A stretch of DNA of 64,000 nucleotides from Marisediminicola antarctica (GCF_009930795.1 NZ_CP017146.1:2976001-3040000), one strand, 5' to 3'. Shown: positions 1 through 30,083, counted from the stretch's first letter. The notes: generated from the sequence alone by a model not told the origin. Made by a program: numbers and translations.

Positions 1-259
1 GGTCAAAATCGAGCAGGCGTGTTGCGTGCTCAATACGCGTTCCCGAGCGGTACTTGTTGAGCACGCGAACTCGGCCCCTGCCGTCGTCGTCGAGGTAGCT
101 CTCCGATTCGCGGAACGGGTAGAGGTACCCGGTCAGCCGGTAATAGCCGACCTCGTGCAGCACTGCAGCTGCGCGGTCCCTGTCGTCCATCTGGATGCCA
201 CGGGCCACGAGCTGGTTGATCTGTTCCTCGATCGATAGCCACGGTTTGGCGTACTCCAC
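1..259 (-). CDS. Abi_2 (AbiD/AbiF-like) abortive-infection protein, N-terminal part only
   Basis: The frame is open from GTG 259 to the window edge, 86 codons, so the gene is cut at its 3' end by the window. The translation begins V-E-Y-A-KPWLSIEEQINQLVARGI and continues through VGYYRLTGYLYPF and RIEHATRLLDFD. These are the characteristic N-terminal blocks of Pfam Abi_2 proteins (AbiD/AbiF), phage-exclusion toxins related to HEPN ribonucleases; the catalytic C-terminal half is not visible. GTG 259 is preferred because a six-G run (265-270 region) sits just upstream; in-frame GTG 265 is the alternative. A strong intrinsic terminator lies immediately upstream (271-311), so the gene is either attenuated or follows a separately terminated small RNA. 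It sits in an accessory block with a serine recombinase beside tRNA-Arg. Family recognition is from sequence memory, not a search. Confidence 0.8.
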   Translation of the reverse strand, partial: MEYAKPWLSIEEQINQLVARGIQMDDRDRAAAVLHEVGYYRLTGYLYPFRESESYLDDDGRGRVRVLNKYRSGTRIEHATRLLDFD

Positions 260-270
260 CAGCACCCCCC

Positions 271-311
271 AAAAAGAAAATCGGCCCGAGCCGTGAGGCG
301 AGCGGGCCGAT
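271..311 (-). terminator. Intrinsic terminator directly upstream of the Abi_2 gene
   Basis: On the minus strand a 9-bp perfect stem (ATCGGCCCG at 303-311 in reverse complement, pairing with 280-288) encloses a 14-nt loop and is followed by a T-rich run TTTTCTTTTT (271-280). This is a textbook Rho-independent terminator. It ends only about 12 nt before the GTG of the Abi_2 gene, unusually close for a terminator of the preceding recombinase gene, which stops more than 200 nt away. Confidence 0.8.
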
Positions 312-467
312 CATGATGAGATCAGCGTAGCAACAATCACAGCTAACAGCGAGATCGGTCGATAGGGGGATCAGCTTCTGAATGATGCAGCGTCGCACTT
401 GTGGTTCTTCCCTTGTGACACGGCTCGACCATCGAAATGACTGCTGCAGGTCTCTGGGTTCGGCTGT
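271..467 (-). ncRNA. Candidate small RNA / leader of the AbiF-like gene
   Basis: The roughly 200-nt gap between the recombinase stop and the Abi_2 gene has no credible ORF and ends in a strong intrinsic terminator on the Abi_2 strand. An AbiF RNA motif has been described next to abiF-type genes, and AbiF proteins have been linked to Cas13 ancestry with an associated non-coding RNA. The position and terminated end fit such an RNA here. I could not recall the consensus well enough to match it, and no convincing promoter is visible, so the 5' end is only a guess. Confidence 0.35.
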
Positions 468-499
468 CCCGTTGCTGAGTTGTTTGGCTCGGCAACGGG
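468..499 (-). terminator. 8-bp inverted repeat after the recombinase gene
   Basis: CCCGTTGC (468-475) and GCAACGGG (492-499) form a perfect 8-bp stem with a 16-nt loop, beginning 18 nt after the recombinase stop codon. No T-run follows on either strand, so it may be a weak terminator, an RNA-stabilising hairpin or the 5' structure of the downstream candidate RNA. Confidence 0.35.
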
Positions 500-517
500 A
501 GCCGGCGGGTGTGTCTT

Positions 518-1099
518 TCAGCGGTCGACCGACTGTCGTTGAACGGTTCGGTACACGGTGGAGCGAGCAACGTTGAACAGCTCGGCAAGCTCGCTCGTGG
601 AATGCGTCCCCGCCCGATGAACTTCCATCAGGTGGCGTTGCTGGGCCGTCGATAACTTCGGTTGCTTGCCGCGCAAATGGCCCTTCGCTTTGGCCACCTG
701 CATCCCTTCGCGTGTTCGGGCGCGGATGAGGTCGGATTCGAACTCTGCCACCATCGCCAGAACGTTGAACAGCAGACGCCCGACCGGATCAGTCGGGTCG
801 TGCACGGATCCGCCGATGCTGAGTTTGACACCCTTGACGGTCAGTTCGTCGATGATGTCTTTCGCATCCCGAAGCGAACGGGCTAGTCGGTCGAGTTTGG
901 CGACCACGAGGGTGTCGCCGTTCCGACAAGCGGCGAGGGCTTCGCGGAGACCCGGGCGTGCCCGGTTGGTGCCGGTGAGTCCATGGTCGGTGTAGATCAG
1001 GTTCGATCTAACGCCGAGGGCTTCCAGGGCGTTTCGTTGGGCGGTGAGATCTTGCTCGTTCGTGGATACGCGTGCGTATCCGATCAGGAGTTCATTCAT
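518..1099 (-). CDS. Serine recombinase (resolvase/invertase, Tn3/Hin type)
   Basis: The 193-residue product starts MNELLIGYARVST, with the nucleophilic serine in the YARVST motif. LDRLARS and the GRLLFNVLAMVAEFESDLIRART stretch (split here by helix E) are typical of the small resolvase/invertase family. The C-terminal 45 residues form a helix-turn-helix (LSTAQQRHL, then STSELAELFNVARSTVYRTV). Length matches site-specific resolvases rather than large integrases. It could resolve transposon cointegrates or invert DNA; no res or hix site was recognised nearby and no Tn3 transposase is in view. It belongs to the accessory segment adjoining tRNA-Arg and may be a remnant of its mobility module. Confidence 0.92.
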   Translation of the reverse strand: MNELLIGYARVSTNEQDLTAQRNALEALGVRSNLIYTDHGLTGTNRARPGLREALAACRNGDTLVVAKLDRLARSLRDAKDIIDELTVKGVKLSIGGSVHDPTDPVGRLLFNVLAMVAEFESDLIRARTREGMQVAKAKGHLRGKQPKLSTAQQRHLMEVHRAGTHSTSELAELFNVARSTVYRTVQRQSVDR

Positions 1100-1286
1100 A
1101 ACTGGAACGCTGCTCGTCGGCTGAGCCAGAGGTCAAGAAAGGTCCCGTAAGCGGCACCCAACCGGGCACCCGTCCGAGGCTGCCAACCCCGACAATGCGC
1201 CCCTCAGGAAAAACCCATTTGCCGTCCGGTGAGGGTCCCCCAAACGGGCCGTTGATCGGCCAGAGCGGATGGGGCACCGTTGGGAT

Positions 1287-1700
1287 ATGAAGTGGAGGCT
1301 GGTTGCATTCGGAGCTGTGGCGGCGTGCTCTCTCGCGGGCTGTTCCGTTTCCGTGCCTACAGGTTCGGTATCGATTGAGATCGGCGCAGACGCGGATGCC
1401 CGCCTAGGTACTCAGTTTCCGGTCACCATCACGAGTTCGGATGACCAGGCCGTGGTTGACGAGGTTATGGTCCGCGGTGACTTCCCCACGTTCGAGGACA
1501 TTCTTCTTGGTGAAGTCACGATAGACATCGGCGGAGCATGCCTTTTCAAAACGGACCTGACGGTGGCGGGCGCCTCGGTGACTGTTCACCAGATGAACTG
1601 TTCGCTTTGGATAGCAGCTGATACCCGTAAGACAATCCCGTTTCGGAAACTACTTCTGAAGGCGGGCCGTGCTGCCGGCCCTCAATACGTTGATGCCTGA
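1287..1700 (+). CDS. Hypothetical lipoprotein
   Basis: From ATG 1287 the product is 137 residues with a short signal peptide (MKWRLVAFGAVAACSLAGC) whose lipobox LAGC places the lipidated cysteine at residue 19. The mature part is small, acidic and apparently beta-rich (repeated T/V alternation), with later Cys in GGACLF and HQMNCS that could pair once exported. I chose 1287 rather than the upstream ATG 1269 because it puts the charged n-region directly before the hydrophobic core. No family was recognised. It lies in the accessory segment and its 3' end overlaps a convergent small membrane protein gene. Confidence 0.65.
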   Translation: MKWRLVAFGAVAACSLAGCSVSVPTGSVSIEIGADADARLGTQFPVTITSSDDQAVVDEVMVRGDFPTFEDILLGEVTIDIGGACLFKTDLTVAGASVTVHQMNCSLWIAADTRKTIPFRKLLLKAGRAAGPQYVDA

Positions 1701-1871
1701 TGCAACTATGGCTGCAATCAGGAATATCTCACCTGCGGCCGCAAGCCATGAGAACCAGGTTTGGCCAATCCCTCGTTCGAGAGTTGCTAAGAGCAAGATT
1801 AGGAAAAGTCCGGCGCCTAGGGCATAGACAAACGCCAGCGGCGTGCGAATCCGTGCCAAGATTCTGATCAT
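1650..1871 (-). CDS. Small hypothetical membrane protein
   Basis: The product, 73 residues from ATG 1871, has two predicted membrane helices (LAFVYALGAGLFLILLLATL and WLAAAGEIFLIAAIVASGI) separated by a short loop, with basic residues at both ends. An in-frame GTG at 1952 would add 27 polar residues without a visible ribosome site; ATG 1871 has AAGGAA immediately before it, so neither start is ideal. Its 3' end overlaps the convergent lipoprotein gene by about 50 nt. No family recognised. Confidence 0.45.
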   Translation of the reverse strand: MIRILARIRTPLAFVYALGAGLFLILLLATLERGIGQTWFSWLAAAGEIFLIAAIVASGINVLRAGSTARLQK

Positions 1872-1971
1872 TTCCTTAACCTGTCGCTTCCAACGGTGCG
1901 GTTTTTGAGTACTCCCCAATCTTACAAGCTCACGGCCTTCCGCTTGTGGCACCGTGTTTCGCTATCGAACG

Positions 1972-2397
1972 TTAGCGAAAAAGCATGAAGGCTCGTATTG
2001 GTTTCGGTTTGTTGTCTCCGCCTTTCATGAAGCCGAGCGATTCGTAAAATACTCGTTGAGAGGGCTCGTCATCCGTTATGAGCACCGTCTGACGAACGTG
2101 TTGATACTTGGCCTTCACATGCTCGAGTAGTGCGCGGCCAATGCCGGCACGCTGGATGTCCGGACGGACGAGAATATCCTGCAAATAGCAGATAGTTACG
2201 TCGTCAGAAATCGCGCGAGCAAGGCCCCAGAGCTCTCGCTCGGGACCACGAGCGGTCACCAAGAACGAGGATCCGCGGATCGCGCGCATCAGCACGTCCG
2301 GATCACGCGTGTACGTAGTCCCACCCACTGATTCGTAAAGGGACAGCGCCTCTTCAGCAGTGACGGAGTCACTGCTGGAGATCGAGAACTCACTCAT
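1972..2397 (-). CDS. GNAT family N-acetyltransferase
   Basis: The 141-residue protein carries the GNAT core: the beta4 strand ICYLQDILVRPDIQRAGIGRALL with the acetyl-CoA pyrophosphate-binding Q-R-A-G-I-G (motif A), then the C-terminal FYESLGF block (motif B). ATG 2397 is chosen because GGAGGG lies 8 nt upstream; the open frame extends further upstream without such a site. Substrate unknown. It is a stand-alone gene in the accessory segment, divergent from the membrane-anchored protein at 2608. Confidence 0.85.
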   Translation of the reverse strand: MSEFSISSSDSVTAEEALSLYESVGGTTYTRDPDVLMRAIRGSSFLVTARGPERELWGLARAISDDVTICYLQDILVRPDIQRAGIGRALLEHVKAKYQHVRQTVLITDDEPSQRVFYESLGFMKGGDNKPKPIRAFMLFR

Positions 2398-2607
2398 CCT
2401 GACACCCTCCCATATCAGCGAGAATTGCCCGCTGATCGTCCCACTTGCGGGCACCGTAACCAAATTCCTTTGGAGCGCATGAGGGTCGGATCGTGGCGCG
2501 ATGCAGGGTCAAGACGATCTCGGGATGATGTCTGGATCGATGCAACGTTTGAGCCATTGTCGGCCACGTACTAGATGAATGCCTACTTGACTACGGAGGA
2601 TGATCTT

Positions 2608-3273
2608 ATGACCAAGCCGACAATTGACGATCTGCTTGCACGCAGTGCCCCGCCAACCGGGGTGGGGGTGTCGAGGGTTCAGAGCATGCTTCGGGCGCTC
2701 GCAGAAGAGTCACGCGTCACCGCCAAGTCTGCTGTTCGTCATCCGCGGCGTCGATTGTGGTGGCTAGCTGCGCCGCTCATCGCTGTTCCGGCCATCGCGT
2801 TGGCGACGACCGGAGGAACCGAGCCTCGCATGGTTCCCGATTTCACCATTCCGATCAGTTTTACGACCGATACGGGCAATGCCGTGACGTGTTCGATCGA
2901 CCTGTTCAATGGTGAAACGAATTACGCGGAGACCGGCACCGCCGCTGTTGACTACCTCCGAGCCCAGGGCTGGACAGGAGTCGGGCAAAGTATCTACAGC
3001 GCGGCCATTAATTACGAGAATGACCCGGCGTGGGTGGCGTCATACAAGGAAGGTTGGGCACCAGTTTCGTCTGCAGAAATCCAGCGGGGTGCGTGGTTGC
3101 GCGCAACGGATGCTCTGACCCACGACCAGTCCGGTCAACCGGACAAGCCCCCCGCGAAGTTGCCCGCGTGGGCCGAGGACCTGCCCGGCCTGGTGCCCGA
3201 CGTCACGGAAGGGACCCCGTGCTCGGAAATCACCGGCGAACCCGGATCAAAACCGCGCAATTTTCCGAACTAG
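2608..3273 (+). CDS. Hypothetical membrane-anchored protein
   Basis: ATG 2608 follows GGAGG by 8 nt. The 221-residue product begins MTKPTIDDLLARSAPP, has a basic cytosolic N-terminus of about 45 residues, one membrane helix (WWLAAPLIAVPAIALATTG, residues about 50-68) and an extracytoplasmic domain with two Cys (VTCSIDLF and TPCSEI) that could form a disulfide. The layout resembles membrane-anchored anti-sigma-like partners, but no sigma factor gene precedes it, so function is open. Its last codons are part of a 16-bp direct repeat that runs through the stop codon. Confidence 0.6.
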   Translation: MTKPTIDDLLARSAPPTGVGVSRVQSMLRALAEESRVTAKSAVRHPRRRLWWLAAPLIAVPAIALATTGGTEPRMVPDFTIPISFTTDTGNAVTCSIDLFNGETNYAETGTAAVDYLRAQGWTGVGQSIYSAAINYENDPAWVASYKEGWAPVSSAEIQRGAWLRATDALTHDQSGQPDKPPAKLPAWAEDLPGLVPDVTEGTPCSEITGEPGSKPRNFPN

Positions 3274-3293
3274 ATGTCAATTTTCCGAACTAG
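3258..3293. repeat. 16-bp direct repeat containing a stop codon
   Basis: CAATTTTCCGAACTAG occurs at 3258-3273 and again at 3278-3293 with 4 nt between. The first copy encodes the last residues and TAG stop of the upstream ORF; the second is non-coding. It lies 17 nt from the 3' end of tRNA-Arg, at the edge of the accessory segment. Confidence 0.85.
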
Positions 3294-3309
3294 CGTGACA
3301 AGTCACACG

Positions 3310-3382
3310 TGCCCCCGGCAGGATTCGAACCTGCGACCAAGAGATTAGAAGGCTCCTGCTCTATCCCCTGAGCTACGGAGGC
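3310..3382 (-). tRNA. tRNA-Arg(UCU)
   Basis: Cloverleaf on the minus strand: acceptor GCCTCCG/CGGGGGC, D-arm GCTC/GAGC, anticodon loop CTTCTAA (anticodon TCT), T-arm GCAGG-TTCGAAT-CCTGC, discriminator A, 73 nt, no encoded CCA. The anticodon stem GGAGC/TCTCT has a C-U mismatch at 31-39 and a G-U pair at 27-43, weaker than usual. Its 3' end faces the accessory segment at 1-3300, the arrangement expected when an element integrated at the tRNA. Confidence 0.95.
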
Positions 3383-3435
3383 GTGAAGGGCAGTTCAACG
3401 ATACCGCAAGGGCCCTTTCGGGCCCTCGCCGGTGG

Positions 3436-3714
3436 CTACTGGCGACCGCCGCGGTCCTCGGGGTCGGCGGAGGGCTCGCTCTCGGCCTTGTCCCAGACGT
3501 AGGTGACGTGCACGGTGCCGCCAATCTCTTTCCAGGACACGACGTCGTAGTTCTCGAGCGTCTCCTTGCCGTCGACGGCGGCGAGAACGGTGACTTCCTT
3601 GTCCCAGGATCCGTCTGTGCTGATTCGACGGTCGGTCTGGCCATCGTTCGGTCCGCCGGTGTAAATCACGACGTACTCGTCGCCGTGCGCGAGCGTGGGA
3701 ATGTTCTCAGTCAT
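3436..3714 (-). CDS. Conserved hypothetical protein
   Basis: The 92-residue soluble acidic protein has no signal or membrane segment. It reads MTENIPTLAHGDEYVVIYTGG then a short charged beta-rich domain ending VHVTYVWDKAESEP and an acidic/polar tail. A TAGTAAT element sits about 5 nt upstream of the ATG, consistent with leaderless or short-leader transcription. It is next to the SCO4848-type membrane protein and orn; I recognise it only as a small actinobacterial hypothetical. Confidence 0.65.
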   Translation of the reverse strand: MTENIPTLAHGDEYVVIYTGGPNDGQTDRRISTDGSWDKEVTVLAAVDGKETLENYDVVSWKEIGGTVHVTYVWDKAESEPSADPEDRGGRQ

Positions 3715-3723
3715 GCTGCATTA

Positions 3724-3945
3724 CTACCACGCGCCGACGAGAGAAGCGATTGCAGCCACGGTCGACACGGCGGCAATGACGAGCGCCAGTCCGATCAGCA
3801 CTGCGTGCACTTTGAGGAAGCGGGTCGCCCGCCCCGCGGCATCCCGCGCCCGCGAGTCGCGCGCGACGCGACGGTAGAACGTGGGCCACACGAGCGCGTT
3901 GAATGCCGCATTGATGAGCAGGAGAACCGCGAGGGTGGTCGTCAT
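3724..3945 (-). CDS. SCO4848-family small membrane protein
   Basis: The 73-residue protein has two hydrophobic helices (residues 3-20 and 46-70) and a central basic stretch FYRRVARDSRARDAAGRATRF, ending KVHAVLIGLALVIAAVS. The N-terminal LINAAFNALVWPTFYRRV block resembles the SCO4848 family, found in actinobacteria beside oligoribonuclease genes, as here (divergent from orn, 72 nt apart). The start has TAGGCT ending exactly 6 nt before ATG, suggesting a leaderless mRNA. Function unknown. Confidence 0.75.
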   Translation of the reverse strand: MTTTLAVLLLINAAFNALVWPTFYRRVARDSRARDAAGRATRFLKVHAVLIGLALVIAAVSTVAAIASLVGAW

Positions 3946-4005
3946 GGCACCAGCCTAGGCAGCAGCAGGGGTGCCATGCCCGCCTCGGATGCCGGTGGTC
4001 GCCGG

Positions 4006-6090: not shown

Positions 6091-6954
6091 GAGGTCGAGC
6101 GGCAGGGCCGGGTCGGCCGACCACTCCTCGAGTGATCCGTCGTAGACGCGAACGGCGGTGACACCGAGCTCGGCGAGGGTCAGCGCATTCGCGGTCGCGG
6201 AGATGCCTCCGCCGCAATACAGCAGCACCTCGCCCTCCCCCGTGACACCCTCGGCGATGTACGCCTCACGCAGCTCCTTCTCGCCTCGCACGGTGCCGTC
6301 GGCGGCGAACAGGTCGCGGGACGACACGTTGATGCTCCCCGGGATGCGCCCCCGGCGGGCGTACCGCGAGGTGTCGGCACCCGTGAAGCTCGCCGACGGC
6401 AGCCCGCAGACGAGCGGGCGGGAGTCGGTCTCGCTGCGCTCCGCCAGCTCCTTCTTGGTGACCCAGGCGGCCCCCTCCCCGCTGACCAGCCAGCGCTCGA
6501 CAGGCTCGGCAGCCGCCCCGGGTCCGGATTGCACGGGAAGGTCCGCCGCCCGCCACGCGTCGAGGCCGCCGTCGAGAACCCGGGCATCCACCCCGATCCA
6601 GCGGAGCAGGTACCACAGGCGCGCGGCGAACATCGTCTGGGTCTGGTCGTAGACGACCACAGGGGTATGCCGTGCGACGCCGAGGCGGGCGAGCTCGTCG
6701 GCGATCGCCTGGGGCTCAGGATGCGTGAAGTGAGTTGCGCCTCGAGGGTCGGAGAACTGCCGTGCGATGTCGACGTAGGTCGACCCGGGTATGTGGGCCT
6801 CGAGCCAGTCCGACTCGGCGGGTCCGGAGCTGTAATCGCCGTCGAACGCGGGCTTCGCGAGCAGGTAGCTCGCGTCGAAGACCGCCGGTCGGGTGTCGGG
6901 TGCCTGGAGCGCGAGGGCGAGCTGGCCGGTGGTGATGAACGGTGAAGGGGTCAC
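6085..6954 (-). CDS. sseA: Thiosulfate/3-mercaptopyruvate sulfurtransferase (two-domain rhodanese)
   Basis: The 289-residue protein has two rhodanese domains. The N-terminal inactive domain includes IPGSTYVDI and VVVYDQTQTMFAARLWYLLRW; the C-terminal catalytic domain has RIPGSINVS and LLYCGGGISATANALTLAELG, where the Cys of YCGGGISA is the persulfide carrier. The GTG start overlaps the kinase stop as GTGA, so it is the last cistron of the TPP-riboswitch operon. That location suggests sulfur supply to thiazole/thiamine chemistry, an inference; the same family also detoxifies cyanide and serves general sulfur trafficking. Confidence 0.9.
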   Translation of the reverse strand: MTPSPFITTGQLALALQAPDTRPAVFDASYLLAKPAFDGDYSSGPAESDWLEAHIPGSTYVDIARQFSDPRGATHFTHPEPQAIADELARLGVARHTPVVVYDQTQTMFAARLWYLLRWIGVDARVLDGGLDAWRAADLPVQSGPGAAAEPVERWLVSGEGAAWVTKKELAERSETDSRPLVCGLPSASFTGADTSRYARRGRIPGSINVSSRDLFAADGTVRGEKELREAYIAEGVTGEGEVLLYCGGGISATANALTLAELGVTAVRVYDGSLEEWSADPALPLDLG

Positions 6955-25935: not shown

Positions 25936-26631
25936 TCAGTAGAAGGCACGCACGTGGGCCGCATATCCGCCGGGCGTGCGCCCCGTGGTACGAGCCGACG
26001 TCTGCACCCAGCACTCGGTGTTCGACAGGATCGCGGCACCCAGCCGGCGGAGGTTCTCGACGAGCGCCACGTCCTCGTGCTCCGGGTAGGGCGGGAATCC
26101 GCCCGCCTCGAGGTAGGCATCCGCCCGCACCCCGAGGTTGGCGCCGTGCACCCGCGTGGTCTCCGGCGCCGCGGCGTGACGTCGCTGCCAATCGCTGTAC
26201 TTCGACGGCGAGAGGTCGCGCGGATCGGGCCGGATCGCGCCGAGCATGACCACCGCGCCCGCCCTGGCAGCCTCGAGGTGATGTGAGATCCACTCCTCCG
26301 GCACCGTCGAGTCTGCGTCTGTATTCGCGAGCCAGAGCCGGGAGGCCGGGGCCTGCGCCTCGTCGATCACGTGTCTGACCCCGTGTTCACGCGCGGCGCC
26401 GACGTTGCGAAAATCGACCTCGAGCGCCTCCACCCCCGGCCAGCGGGTGGCGATTGCCGCAGACCCGTCCGTGCAGGCGTCGAGCACCACAACTACTCGC
26501 AGTCTCAGCAGCGGGTGCCTCAATCGCCCCACCGCCGTGTCAACCGCGGCGAGGCAGGCGGAAAGATGCTGGTCCTCGTTGTTCACCGGGACCACGACGG
26601 CGAACTCGTCGAGGGGCTCCTCCGGGTTCAC
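25936..26631 (-). CDS. Glycosyltransferase family 2 protein
   Basis: The 231-residue GT-A enzyme reads FAVVVPVNNEDQHLSACLAAVD at the nucleotide-sugar site, VVVVLDACTDGSA, and LANTDADSTVPEEWI (DxD metal-binding). GANLGVRADAYLEAGGFPPYPEHEDVAL is the acceptor-side ED motif region. It lacks membrane segments. The GTG start overlaps the stop of the PIG-L/methyltransferase gene (GTGA), making it the third cistron of the operon. It would add a sugar to the product; donor and acceptor are unknown. Confidence 0.9.
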   Translation of the reverse strand: MNPEEPLDEFAVVVPVNNEDQHLSACLAAVDTAVGRLRHPLLRLRVVVVLDACTDGSAAIATRWPGVEALEVDFRNVGAAREHGVRHVIDEAQAPASRLWLANTDADSTVPEEWISHHLEAARAGAVVMLGAIRPDPRDLSPSKYSDWQRRHAAAPETTRVHGANLGVRADAYLEAGGFPPYPEHEDVALVENLRRLGAAILSNTECWVQTSARTTGRTPGGYAAHVRAFY

Positions 26632-27995
26632 GCGTCGTGGCCGAGCAACCCGGTCTCCCGTGCCACGGAGCGCGCGGGAGGGCGAACGAGCACATCGAGA
26701 AGGAAGTCCTCTTCGCGGTGTTCGGAGAGCACCTCGAAGGCCGGATGCGCCCGAAGGGCCGCGTGCACCTCATCGCCCGTCTCCGGGTAGCCCTCCACCG
26801 GATGCCGCCAGTGGCAGGCGACAAGCACCCCGTCGTCAGTGAGCGACGCCTCGATATGTTCGAGCACGAGCTGCAGGTCTTCGGGGCTCCAGTAGTAGGC
26901 GACCTCGGAGAGCACCACAAGGTCGAAGGTGCCCTCGGGCCATTCGAGCGGGGTATCGGCCCGCACCACCGTGACATGCGCCTGCTCGATGAGCCGCTTG
27001 CGGGCGAGGCTGAGCGGCTGCTCGGCGATGTCGGTCGCGATGATCTCGGCGCAGCGTCCGGCGAGTTCGGCGGTGAGCACGCCGATCGAGCATCCGACCT
27101 CGAGGGCCGACGCGAACAACGGTCGGGGCAAGGATGCGACGGTGAGCGCGCGCTTGCGGATCTCGTACCAGCGAGTCTCGAATCCCCAGGGGTCCTCGCT
27201 GCCGGAGTAGAAGCTGTCGAAGAACTCCCGCGTGAGTGTGCGGCTCCCGACGGGTGTGATGAAGACCTCGAACGGTCGGCTGAAGTACTCGTGGAATTGC
27301 TCGCTCAGCAGCCGTTCGTCTCCCGCCGCGTCGGAGAGCGGCGCGTTCTGGCTCTCGTGGGCGGAGATCGCCATGTCCTTGGCGCTGCGTTCGTCACGCT
27401 CGAGCGCGAGCGTGACGAAGCGGCTCCACGGCACGTCGTCGTCGCCCGGCTGTGCCCAGTGCCACATCCAGACCGGGTACTCGAGCAGTTGGGCGCCTCG
27501 AGCGCGCGCGACTCGCGCCGCTACAGCCCCGGCGGCCTCGTGGTCGCCGTGCCGGTCCTGGCGCCATGGTGCGACGACGAGGGTCCCCTCGGAGAACTGG
27601 AGCGACTCCAGGTGGGCGGTCAGCTCGCTCGCGTGCTCTGCCAGCGCACCGTCGGGGAGGTCGAGAAAGTCGACCGTGGCGAGCGGGGCGACCATCTGCA
27701 CCGCCTTGAGCACCTCGCTGCGCCGCAGGAGGACGATCTCCTCGGGCGAGGTTGTCGGCGACGCGGGGTGTGACGCCTCACCGTTGGTCGCGACGACGAG
27801 GTGCACCGGTACACCGAGATGCGTCGCGTGCGCCATCAGGCCGCCCGCACCGAGCGACTCATCGTCGGGATGTGCCGATACGACGACGAGTCTCCGGAAG
27901 TCCGACAGGGTGAGCGCTGGCACCTCCTGCCATCTGGGGGCTGTCAGCCACTCGTCCTCAGGTGTTCCCTTCTGACGATGATCGAATTTCACCAT
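26628..27995 (-). CDS. Fusion of PIG-L deacetylase and SAM-dependent methyltransferase
   Basis: The 455-residue protein has an N-terminal LmbE/PIG-L domain (residues about 35-240) with the zinc motif VVSAHPDDESLGAGGLM and RQDRHGDHEAAG. A class I methyltransferase domain follows (about 270-430): SALEVGCSIGVLTAEL (SAM-binding motif I), IIATDIAEQPLSLARKRL and FDLVVLSEVAYYW. ATG 27995 has AAAGG 7 nt upstream and overlaps the acyl-CoA dehydrogenase stop by 7 nt. The methyltransferase half resembles NodS-type enzymes acting on N-deacetylated sugars, so deacetylation followed by N-methylation is plausible but unproven. Confidence 0.92.
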   Translation of the reverse strand: MVKFDHRQKGTPEDEWLTAPRWQEVPALTLSDFRRLVVVSAHPDDESLGAGGLMAHATHLGVPVHLVVATNGEASHPASPTTSPEEIVLLRRSEVLKAVQMVAPLATVDFLDLPDGALAEHASELTAHLESLQFSEGTLVVAPWRQDRHGDHEAAGAVAARVARARGAQLLEYPVWMWHWAQPGDDDVPWSRFVTLALERDERSAKDMAISAHESQNAPLSDAAGDERLLSEQFHEYFSRPFEVFITPVGSRTLTREFFDSFYSGSEDPWGFETRWYEIRKRALTVASLPRPLFASALEVGCSIGVLTAELAGRCAEIIATDIAEQPLSLARKRLIEQAHVTVVRADTPLEWPEGTFDLVVLSEVAYYWSPEDLQLVLEHIEASLTDDGVLVACHWRHPVEGYPETGDEVHAALRAHPAFEVLSEHREEDFLLDVLVRPPARSVARETGLLGHDA

Positions 27996-29053
27996 GGTCG
28001 TGCCTTTCTCGTGAGCAGCGCGCGGCCGAGTTCTGCCTCGTCCCGCTCGGCGTGGTCCTGACGAAGGTACAACTCCAGGTCGGCGACGCGGCCGGCGTGA
28101 CGGGCGTCGAGGGCGAGCGGTGCTGGCCCCATCGCATGCGCGCACCGTCGGATGATCTCCTCCGCCGAACGGGCGACCATCGAGCGGGTGCGCCCGGCGA
28201 GAATCCGCGTCTCGCCGCGGTCCGGTTGGCCCTGATCGACAATCGCGGCCGCGGCAGACAGCGCGATGCGACCGATCTCGACCTGCACGTCTGTCGCTCC
28301 GAGGTGCATGAGCGCGATCTGGTCGGGATCCCGAGCGCGCACGCCCTCGTCGAGGGCACGGGCGATTCCGATCGAGGCTCCCCACCAGACGGCCGCGACG
28401 CCGATCCCTCCCCACGCGAAGCCCGGTCGGGAGAGATACCACCCGTCGTCCCCGATCGGCACTGCGGGGACCGAGTCCAATTCGATCGGTCCGCTCTCGA
28501 CGCCCGGCAGACCTCGGGCGGACCACTCGCCGTGCCTCAGCCGCACCCCATCGTTCCCGAGGTCGATTGCGAACAGCCGCCGGCCGCCCGGGGTGTGGGC
28601 GGTGACGAGCGCGTGCGACAGCCGCCCCGCGAGCGAACACCACGGTTTGACCCCGTCGAGCACCCACGACCCGCCACGGCCCGTCGCGGTGACCCGCAGA
28701 CCGGCTCCCTCGGCCGCGAACACGCCCCATGCGCTGCCCCCGTGCGCACCGACGGCGCCGAGGTCGGCGGCGACCGGCAACTGTCCGAGGATCGCGAGGG
28801 CGTCGAGGTGCGGCTCGACGACGCGCGCGACCGACACATCGGCGGCCGCGATCGTCGCGAGGGTCGACCACAACGCCGCGGTCTCTCCGACTCCGGGAAG
28901 CGGCGCAGACGACCCGAGTTCGACGGCGAGGTCGATCGCTGTGGCGATGCTGCCGCCAGCGGCCAGCACCCGCGCGTGTACGGCGTCGAGCTCGTTCTCG
29001 AGGGCATCCTGTCTGCGCTCAAGCTGGACGGCTGCGTGGCGGGGGTGAACCAT
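27989..29053 (-). CDS. Acyl-CoA dehydrogenase-like protein
   Basis: The 354-residue product has the helical N-domain, a beta-domain with ATGRGGSWVLDGVKPWCSLAGRLSHALVTA (split by family landmarks; the VLDGxKxW block is typical) and a C-terminal helical bundle, LHLGATDVQVEIGRIALSAAAA-like MHLGATDVQVEIGRI and RTRSMVARSAEEIIRRCAHAMG. The usual catalytic Glu could not be assigned with confidence, so it may be a flavin oxidase/monooxygenase variant rather than a fatty-acyl-CoA enzyme. TAGATT ends 6 nt before ATG (leaderless). First gene of a three-cistron operon. Confidence 0.85.
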   Translation of the reverse strand: MVHPRHAAVQLERRQDALENELDAVHARVLAAGGSIATAIDLAVELGSSAPLPGVGETAALWSTLATIAAADVSVARVVEPHLDALAILGQLPVAADLGAVGAHGGSAWGVFAAEGAGLRVTATGRGGSWVLDGVKPWCSLAGRLSHALVTAHTPGGRRLFAIDLGNDGVRLRHGEWSARGLPGVESGPIELDSVPAVPIGDDGWYLSRPGFAWGGIGVAAVWWGASIGIARALDEGVRARDPDQIALMHLGATDVQVEIGRIALSAAAAIVDQGQPDRGETRILAGRTRSMVARSAEEIIRRCAHAMGPAPLALDARHAGRVADLELYLRQDHAERDEAELGRALLTRKARPW

Positions 29054-29105
29054 GCACCAAATCTAAACTGGCACGCCGCAAAACTCTGCCACGAGATGCA
29101 GCAGG

Positions 29106-30083
29106 TCAGGCGATCGGGATGACCAGGCAGGTGCTGCTTGCCGTCGCAATGAGCTTTCCCTGTGCATCCACGACGGTCCCTTCGGCGAACGCGACGCGGC
29201 GCCCGGGTTTGGTGACCGTGCCCACGGCGGTAAGACGCCCGGTGTCGGCGCGAACCGGACGCAGGTAGCTCACCTTGATCTCAATCGAGGTGTAACCCTG
29301 GTCGGCAGGGAGCGTGGTCTGCACCGCGCATCCGATCGCCGAATCGAGCAGCGTGCAGACGAGCCCGCCGTGCACGGTGCCGATCGGGTTGTAGTGCGAC
29401 TCGTCGGGCAGGCACTCGAAGGTCGTCGTGCCCGCACCTGCGGCGACGGGCGCCATGCGCATGAGCGCGGCCATCGGCGGGGGCGGCACAGTGCCATCGA
29501 TCATGGCCCGGATGTACTCGAGCCCGCTCATCGATTGCGCCGCGCGCGTGCCGATTGTAGGGTCGGCCCACTCGACCACCCGCGAGCGCGCCGGGGCGGC
29601 GAGAAGGGCCACCTGAACGCTGCCGCCCTTGGTGGCCTGTCGACCGATCTCAGCGAAGCCGATTCTCGTGTGGAACGCGAGGGACCGGGGGTTCGGCGGT
29701 TCGACATTGACCTCGCAGGTGACCTCGGAACGGCCCGCGGCGCGCGCGAGCCAGAAGGCGTGGTCATAGAGCAGCCGGCCGAGTCGCTGGCCGCGGCGGT
29801 CCTCATCGACCACGATGCGATCGACGTAGAACGAGTCTCCGCCGCGCTGCTCAAAGAAGCGGTAGTTCTCGCTTGCGTAGTCGCTGCCGGGGTCGAATCC
29901 GATCAGGAATCCGTGCAGTTGCTGGGTCTGGTCGTCGACGACACCGAACGAGTGGTCGCTCAGGGCGATCAGCGCTGCGAGCTCATCCGCCGTCGTGAAC
30001 GGCACGGCCGGCACCGCCGCATTGTTAAACTCCGCCACTCGGGGAAGGTCGTCGGTGAGCAGGTCGCGAATGATTAGAGGCAC
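29106..30083 (-). CDS. GNAT acetyltransferase / hotdog thioesterase fusion
   Basis: The 325-residue protein joins two enzymes. Residues 1-160 are a GNAT domain with FYVDRIVVDEDRRGQRLGRLLYDHAF (motif A, Q-R-L-G). Residues about 185-325 are a PaaI-type hotdog thioesterase domain: ESHYNPIGTVHGGLVCTLLDSAIGCAVQ (HGG and catalytic-helix region) and YTSIEIKVSYLRPV. A GTG start with TAGGGT ending 6 nt upstream suggests leaderless expression. The fusion implies linked use of acyl-CoA or release of acyl groups; substrate unknown. Confidence 0.88.
   Translation of the reverse strand: MPLIIRDLLTDDLPRVAEFNNAAVPAVPFTTADELAALIALSDHSFGVVDDQTQQLHGFLIGFDPGSDYASENYRFFEQRGGDSFYVDRIVVDEDRRGQRLGRLLYDHAFWLARAAGRSEVTCEVNVEPPNPRSLAFHTRIGFAEIGRQATKGGSVQVALLAAPARSRVVEWADPTIGTRAAQSMSGLEYIRAMIDGTVPPPPMAALMRMAPVAAGAGTTTFECLPDESHYNPIGTVHGGLVCTLLDSAIGCAVQTTLPADQGYTSIEIKVSYLRPVRADTGRLTAVGTVTKPGRRVAFAEGTVVDAQGKLIATASSTCLVIPIA

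Follow-up and report, generated by a model that had tools for sequence, protein, structure and literature searches.

The three genes on the minus strand at positions 29053-25936 of the window, i.e. the 64,000 nt of Marisediminicola antarctica DNA analysed here (NZ_CP017146.1:2976001-3040000, GCF_009930795.1; the source is a complete chromosome of 3.35 Mb), represent a cassette of four enzymatic functions that occurs in at least four phyla and almost certainly operates as one functional unit. We propose, with a probability of about 0.5, that its product is a small, soluble amino-sugar glycoside with a modified nitrogen, formed within the general stress response. The observation underlying the original prediction, a three-gene operon with overlaps of 7 and 4 nt, is confirmed, and its interpretation is partly supported: the domain assignments agree with a glycoconjugate or small sugar metabolite that is assembled step by step and modified at nitrogen, the nature of the flavoenzyme has to be revised, and the stress- and trehalose-gene neighbourhood, which is the main clue to the role of the cassette, had not been part of that reading.

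Gene layout and distribution of the cassette

The first gene (27989..29053) encodes a flavoprotein of 354 aa with the ACAD fold, the second (26628..27995) a bifunctional protein of 455 aa in which a PIG-L N-deacetylase is fused to a NodS-like SAM methyltransferase, and the third (25936..26631, GTG start) a GT2 glycosyltransferase (GT) of 231 aa with GT-A fold and a TDADS motif; all three are open reading frames on the minus strand. The first two genes share 7 nt (ATGGTGA, 27989..27995), the last two 4 nt (26628..26631), and both overlaps are conserved across genera: in other loci the flavoprotein and fusion genes overlap by 7 nt in 51/78 and by 4 nt in 21/78 cases, and the methyltransferase and GT genes by 4 nt in 55 loci. 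As identical overlaps recur in other genera the three-gene arrangement is not due to chance, and their conservation argues for translational coupling. A -10-like box, TAGATT (29060..29065, minus strand), lies 6 nt before the ATG of the flavoprotein gene, and TAGATT or TAGGTT is found at this distance in the window and in three relatives (L028, L029, L031), but neither in the congener L030 nor in the more distant loci compared. The predicted leaderless start is thus plausible. Upstream, at 29106-30083 on the same strand, a GNAT acetyltransferase is fused to a hotdog (PaaI-like) thioesterase; L030 and L031 match the GNAT part only and the frame is broken in L028. The G+C content is 59-61% at positions 1-4000 and around 63-73% over the remaining window.

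At E <= 1e-20 the fusion protein is found in 20 of 60 sampled relatives. In 19 of these an ACAD-like gene adjoins the match, the exception (G011) being a PIG-L match only, and the GT gene nearly always comes next after the fusion gene. A scan of 84,980 species for the flavoprotein yielded at least 541 relatives, with Microbacteriaceae among the nearest named ones. In the best 80 of these at least 541 loci, which served as actinobacterial set, a methyltransferase is present in 79, a PIG-L deacetylase in 78 and a GT in 77, and all four functions lie within 3.5 kb in 77. Of 296 genomes sampled from the phylum to which the window belongs, 30 match at 1e-40, but only about 12 fall below 1e-70. In another phylum, searched around a genome labelled Nitrococcus and probably Pseudomonadota as judged from the matches, the flavoprotein was found in 33 of 398 genomes; the 32 loci fetched contain a methyltransferase (32/32), PIG-L (28/32) and GT (26/32), and 25 of them hold the complete set of four within 3.5 kb. 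The same holds for 13/13 plasmid loci, the plasmid records coming from Acinetobacter, Comamonas, Cupriavidus, Pandoraea, Legionella, Komagataeibacter, Sulfitobacter, Bradyrhizobium, Methylobacterium, Deinococcus, Kitasatospora and Nostoc. Overall, methyltransferase and flavoprotein occur together in 124/125 loci, i.e. the genes are not scattered in relatives. Deacetylase and methyltransferase form one open frame in 73 of 78 testable actinobacterial loci; outside Actinobacteria the cassette usually consists of four separate genes. On the basis of this distribution, which comprises chromosomes and plasmids of Actinomycetota, Pseudomonadota, Deinococcota and Cyanobacteriota, the cassette is ancient and partly plasmid-borne rather than a compact local novelty. 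The mirror-tree correlations are 0.65-0.68 for all gene pairs and therefore reflect no more than shared descent.

Several loci deviate from the common layout. In one congener (L029, G002) the GT gene is gone at 6384-6593 with flavoprotein and fusion gene intact, and orientation and subtype of the GT vary in alphaproteobacteria, Deinococcus and Nostoc. In four Pseudomonas-like loci an additional PIG-L gene follows closely after the GT position (L177, 11473-12117; L178, 12082-12732; L179, 6026-6793; L181, 5814-6575), and no GT was detected in L177. A metagenome-assembled genome labelled Nitrococcus (L116/G060) contains an actinobacterial-like copy with 48% identity to the window flavoprotein, probably due to contamination or transfer. 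An apparent fusion of the GT to a HAD phosphatase in L033 was dismissed: the GT loses its reading frame ahead of the HAD portion, which makes a frameshift artefact most likely, and such a fusion is seen in no other locus.

Deacetylase, methyltransferase and glycosyltransferase

The PIG-L domain comprises residues 37-161 of the fusion protein (27513..27887, minus strand) and scores 85 bits against the Pfam cut-off of 28.2. In the deacetylase-METHYLTRANSFERASE fusion the zinc ligands His42, Asp45 and His152 are invariant in alignment A1, and the zinc motifs HPDDE and HxDH are intact in 116 of 119 deacetylases, the three exceptions being one locus with a disrupted frame and two whose PIG-L protein comes from a different subfamily (SPHLDD). 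The zinc site, on which the predicted deacetylase function depends, is thus present, and deacetylation of an N-acetylhexosaminyl glycoside is very likely. Three more PIG-L genes are located elsewhere in the genome.

The methyltransferase domain, of class I (residues 267-394; 26814..27197, minus strand), matches the Pfam models NodS, Methyltransf_12 and Methyltransf_25, with 45.3 bits for NodS (PF05401; cut-off 24) and slightly higher values for the generic methyltransferase models. Its nearest structure is PDB 4ISC (residues 275-436, E 1.7e-41), deposited simply as 'Methyltransferase'. NodS is also the best NCBIfam model for the methyltransferases of the window, Comamonas and Acinetobacter, all far below the equivalog cut-off (58.1 of 300 bits for the window fusion protein). 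A quick maximum-likelihood tree places the cassette methyltransferases together (SH-aLRT 89) and beside, not within, a group that contains NodS and the methyltransferase domain of trifunctional GT/methyltransferase/deacetylase proteins; the root is unsure as the sole outgroup row is very long. In both neighbouring groups the methyltransferase is thus associated with a GT and with a deacetylase, the latter from two different families. Because the nearest named relatives are NodS and these fusions, methylation of a freed amine is the more probable activity; the similarity to NodS is moderate and therefore leaves room for O-methylation.

The GT exceeds the Pfam cut-off for Glycos_transf_2 (46.9 vs 23.3 bits), its DxD-type TDAD motif is invariant in the cassette GTs, and its confident structural model has a GT-A fold with Z ~22 to WrtF. 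As the fold matches are GT2 enzymes that use UDP-GlcNAc, GDP-fucose and other donors, the fold does not allow the donor to be named. The cassette contains no nucleotide-sugar gene, and the scores for MftF (33.5 of 280 bits) and the arsenosugar GT model TIGR04283 (38.4 of 182 bits) stay below the cut-offs. Indeed, the members tested from all four protein families stay below the equivalog cut-offs of the curated NCBIfam models, and no curated model names the cassette.

Fold and active site of the flavoprotein

The window flavoprotein narrowly misses the Pfam cut-off with its matches to the middle and C-terminal ACAD domains. Its AF2 model is confident (pLDDT 89) and exhibits the ACAD fold, superimposing on many ACADs with Z ~32 over ~330 residues (rmsd 2.5-2.9). 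As dehydrogenases, ColB1 and the monooxygenase TdsC all give Z ~32, the fold alone does not decide on the type of enzyme. The active site is more informative. The catalytic Glu of the C-terminal YEGT-type motif is absent, and the position of the acyl-CoA dehydrogenase base is occupied by Gln332. Gln is found here in 14/14 aligned members from several phyla (alignment A4) and in 15/15 members of alignment A2, whereas Glu is found in five of the six further ACADs from this genome that were aligned with the 14 members. Judging from the motif alignment, an invariant Gly appears to occupy the position that isovaleryl-CoA dehydrogenase uses. The wide-family profile (A4) ranks TdsC (65 bits), DszC (61), 5z8t/5gj7 and MsuC (60) on top, followed by 2dvl (55), the amino-sugar N-oxygenase KijD3 (47) and SCAD (46); in the actinobacterial-only profile (A2), where the order is less clear, TdsC falls slightly behind the dehydrogenase 2dvl. 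Among the models SfnB is hit most often, by 10 of 14 members, with scores (28.6 bits in Comamonas, 20.6 in Acinetobacter) far from its curated cut-off of 430.9 and no match for the window protein. No dedicated flavin reductase gene was seen in the cassette.

The replacement of Glu by Gln and the preference of the wide-family profile lead us to favour an oxygenase of the DszC/MsuC type over a dehydrogenase. Thus, the 'acyl-CoA dehydrogenase-like' assignment holds for the fold and fails at the active site, and proteins in this gene context are probably no dehydrogenases even where they are annotated as 'acyl-CoA dehydrogenase family'. If the enzyme were a true dehydrogenase or oxidase after all, acting on an acyl-CoA, an acyl carrier or an amine with Gln332 or another residue in place of the base, the product would be an acylated or unsaturated amino-sugar glycolipid. 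The equally high similarity to dehydrogenases and to ColB1, which dehydrogenates carrier-bound cysteine, and the top rank of 2dvl in the actinobacterial profile are in line with such an enzyme, but the Glu is missing in all aligned members, the broader profile and the frequency of SfnB matches point the other way, and neither an acyl-CoA ligase nor an ETF gene was seen repeatedly among the neighbours, which makes this alternative unlikely.

A candidate stress pathway and its relation to known systems

Dps is the commonest extra neighbour in Actinobacteria, located within ~8 kb in 22 of the best 80 of at least 541 loci vs ~0.6 in 80 expected by calculation (~1.8 ferritin-family genes per 4 Mb genome; kinship uncorrected). 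In the probably pseudomonadotal loci otsA lies within 9 kb in 3/32 vs ~0.1 expected, again uncorrected for kinship. Two Comamonas have the single run otsA-ACAD-PIGL-MT-GT-otsB, otsAB adjoins the cassette in Acinetobacter and two further loci (L188, L195), and otsB and GH65 are near it in Legionella. treY-malQ-glgX is found directly upstream on the same strand in the four Pseudomonas-like loci L177-L179 and L181 and also near the cassette in L189, and malQ/treY in L192. Further neighbours outside Actinobacteria are catalases (KatE), Ku, LigD, CsbD and general stress proteins; in the window itself no stress gene adjoins the operon. Dps, catalase and trehalose genes are typical members of regulons for stationary phase or general stress. 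As these neighbours point to stress physiology, a stress role of the cassette is likely. A gene set that stays together across phyla next to genes for Dps, catalase, DNA-end joining and trehalose would be expected to yield a product with which many bacteria survive stress.

Based on these findings we suggest a cytosolic route of four reactions. The GT2 would transfer an N-acetylhexosamine, most likely GlcNAc, from a nucleotide sugar to a cytosolic acceptor, the zinc-dependent PIG-L domain would remove the N-acetyl group, and the fused NodS-like domain would methylate the freed amine with SAM. Finally, the ACAD-fold flavoprotein, devoid of the dehydrogenase base, would oxygenate the product with O2, probably at or next to the nitrogen, using reduced flavin supplied by a general reductase. 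The resulting compound would be an N-methylated, probably oxygenated amino-sugar glycoside.

Alternatively, the cassette might alter the envelope under stress by placing an N-methylated amino sugar on a polymer or lipid of the cell surface (LPS core, teichoic acid or glycolipid), as the fold matches of the GT include the wall and surface-polysaccharide transferases WrtF, TarS, TarP and RmlT, and Nod factor chemistry yields an exported, lipid-linked oligosaccharide. We regard this as distinctly unlikely: none of the three window proteins has a long hydrophobic, let alone a transmembrane, segment, no transporter, ligase or polymer gene was seen repeatedly beside the cassette, and the cassette is found in monoderm and diderm phyla alike. 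The trehalose genes described above, in particular the arrangement in Comamonas, would fit trehalose or trehalose-6-phosphate as acceptor and an amino-sugar derivative of trehalose as product; most loci, however, have no trehalose gene nearby, and shared stress regulation accounts for these neighbours equally well, as it does for Dps and KatE, so that we consider this acceptor improbable. That the genes are simply co-regulated stress genes with unrelated reactions and no common pathway, as might be read from the loss of the GT in one congener and its varying orientation and subtype, is highly improbable in view of the near-universal pairing of methyltransferase and flavoprotein, the conserved overlaps and the protein fusion.

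No pathway had been assigned to this gene set in the original prediction, and we found no functional account of the cassette in the literature searched, which was mostly non-subscription; it may be described elsewhere. Its sole appearance there is in gene-map legends (PMC9020721), where it lies beside the gene for a BLUF photoreceptor in Acinetobacter nosocomialis, and a BLUF blue-light receptor gene is also located near the cassette in an unrelated genus (L131, 702-1133). Nothing usable on the cassette was contained in PMC10653896, PMC11348943, PMC13130816, PMC12029717 and PMC8069197.

The favoured route, which would yield an N-methylated amino-sugar glycoside, resembles several known systems in part. 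In mycothiol (MshA/MshB) and bacillithiol (BshA/BshB) synthesis a GT forms a GlcNAc glycoside that a PIG-L enzyme then deacetylates, the same logic as proposed here, but the cassette additionally has a methyltransferase and a flavoprotein, and no Cys-ligase-like neighbour was seen. Membership in these thiol pathways was rejected since the fusion protein is far from the equivalog cut-offs of BshB1 (48.3 of 182.5 bits), MshB (27.1 of 224.35) and Mca (23.1 of 277.15). With the ACAD-fold monooxygenases (DszC/TdsC, MsuC, SfnB and the nitrososynthases KijD3/DnmZ) the flavoprotein shares the fold and has its best family-profile matches, and it lacks the dehydrogenase Glu; it differs from them in being shorter (~310-390 aa), in its own YxRQxH motif and in an identity of under ~20%.

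A further close parallel is Nod factor synthesis by NodC, NodB and NodS, where GT2 synthesis, de-N-acetylation and N-methylation of the freed amine follow each other and the methyltransferase belongs to the group neighbouring that of the cassette. In contrast to the Nod enzymes, the cassette uses a PIG-L deacetylase instead of the CE4-type NodB and a short soluble GT, has an additional ACAD-fold flavoprotein, and occurs in non-symbionts beside stress genes; NodA, NodB and NodC are absent from the cassette in the window and the plasmid loci, and, with the cut-offs unmet, it was not assigned to the Nod system. The trifunctional proteins annotated in Sulfitobacter (L211, 2396-5476) and Rhizobium (L212, 2405-5407) likewise unite a GT, a class I SAM-dependent methyltransferase, which groups with NodS next to that of the cassette, and a deacetylase in one chain. 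However, their deacetylase is a CE4-type polysaccharide deacetylase, the genes next to them are annotated as other GTs and an ABC transporter, and they have no flavoprotein. Thus, the Nod-like combination of GT, deacetylase and N-methyltransferase seems to have been assembled with a different deacetylase as well. We tentatively speculate, well aware that this is doubtful, that N-methylated, N-oxygenated amino-sugar glycosides form a new class of stress metabolites in at least four phyla, and that, since no relative nearer to the Nod factor N-methyltransferase than the cassette methyltransferase was found, part of the Nod signal of symbiosis may have been recruited from such a route.
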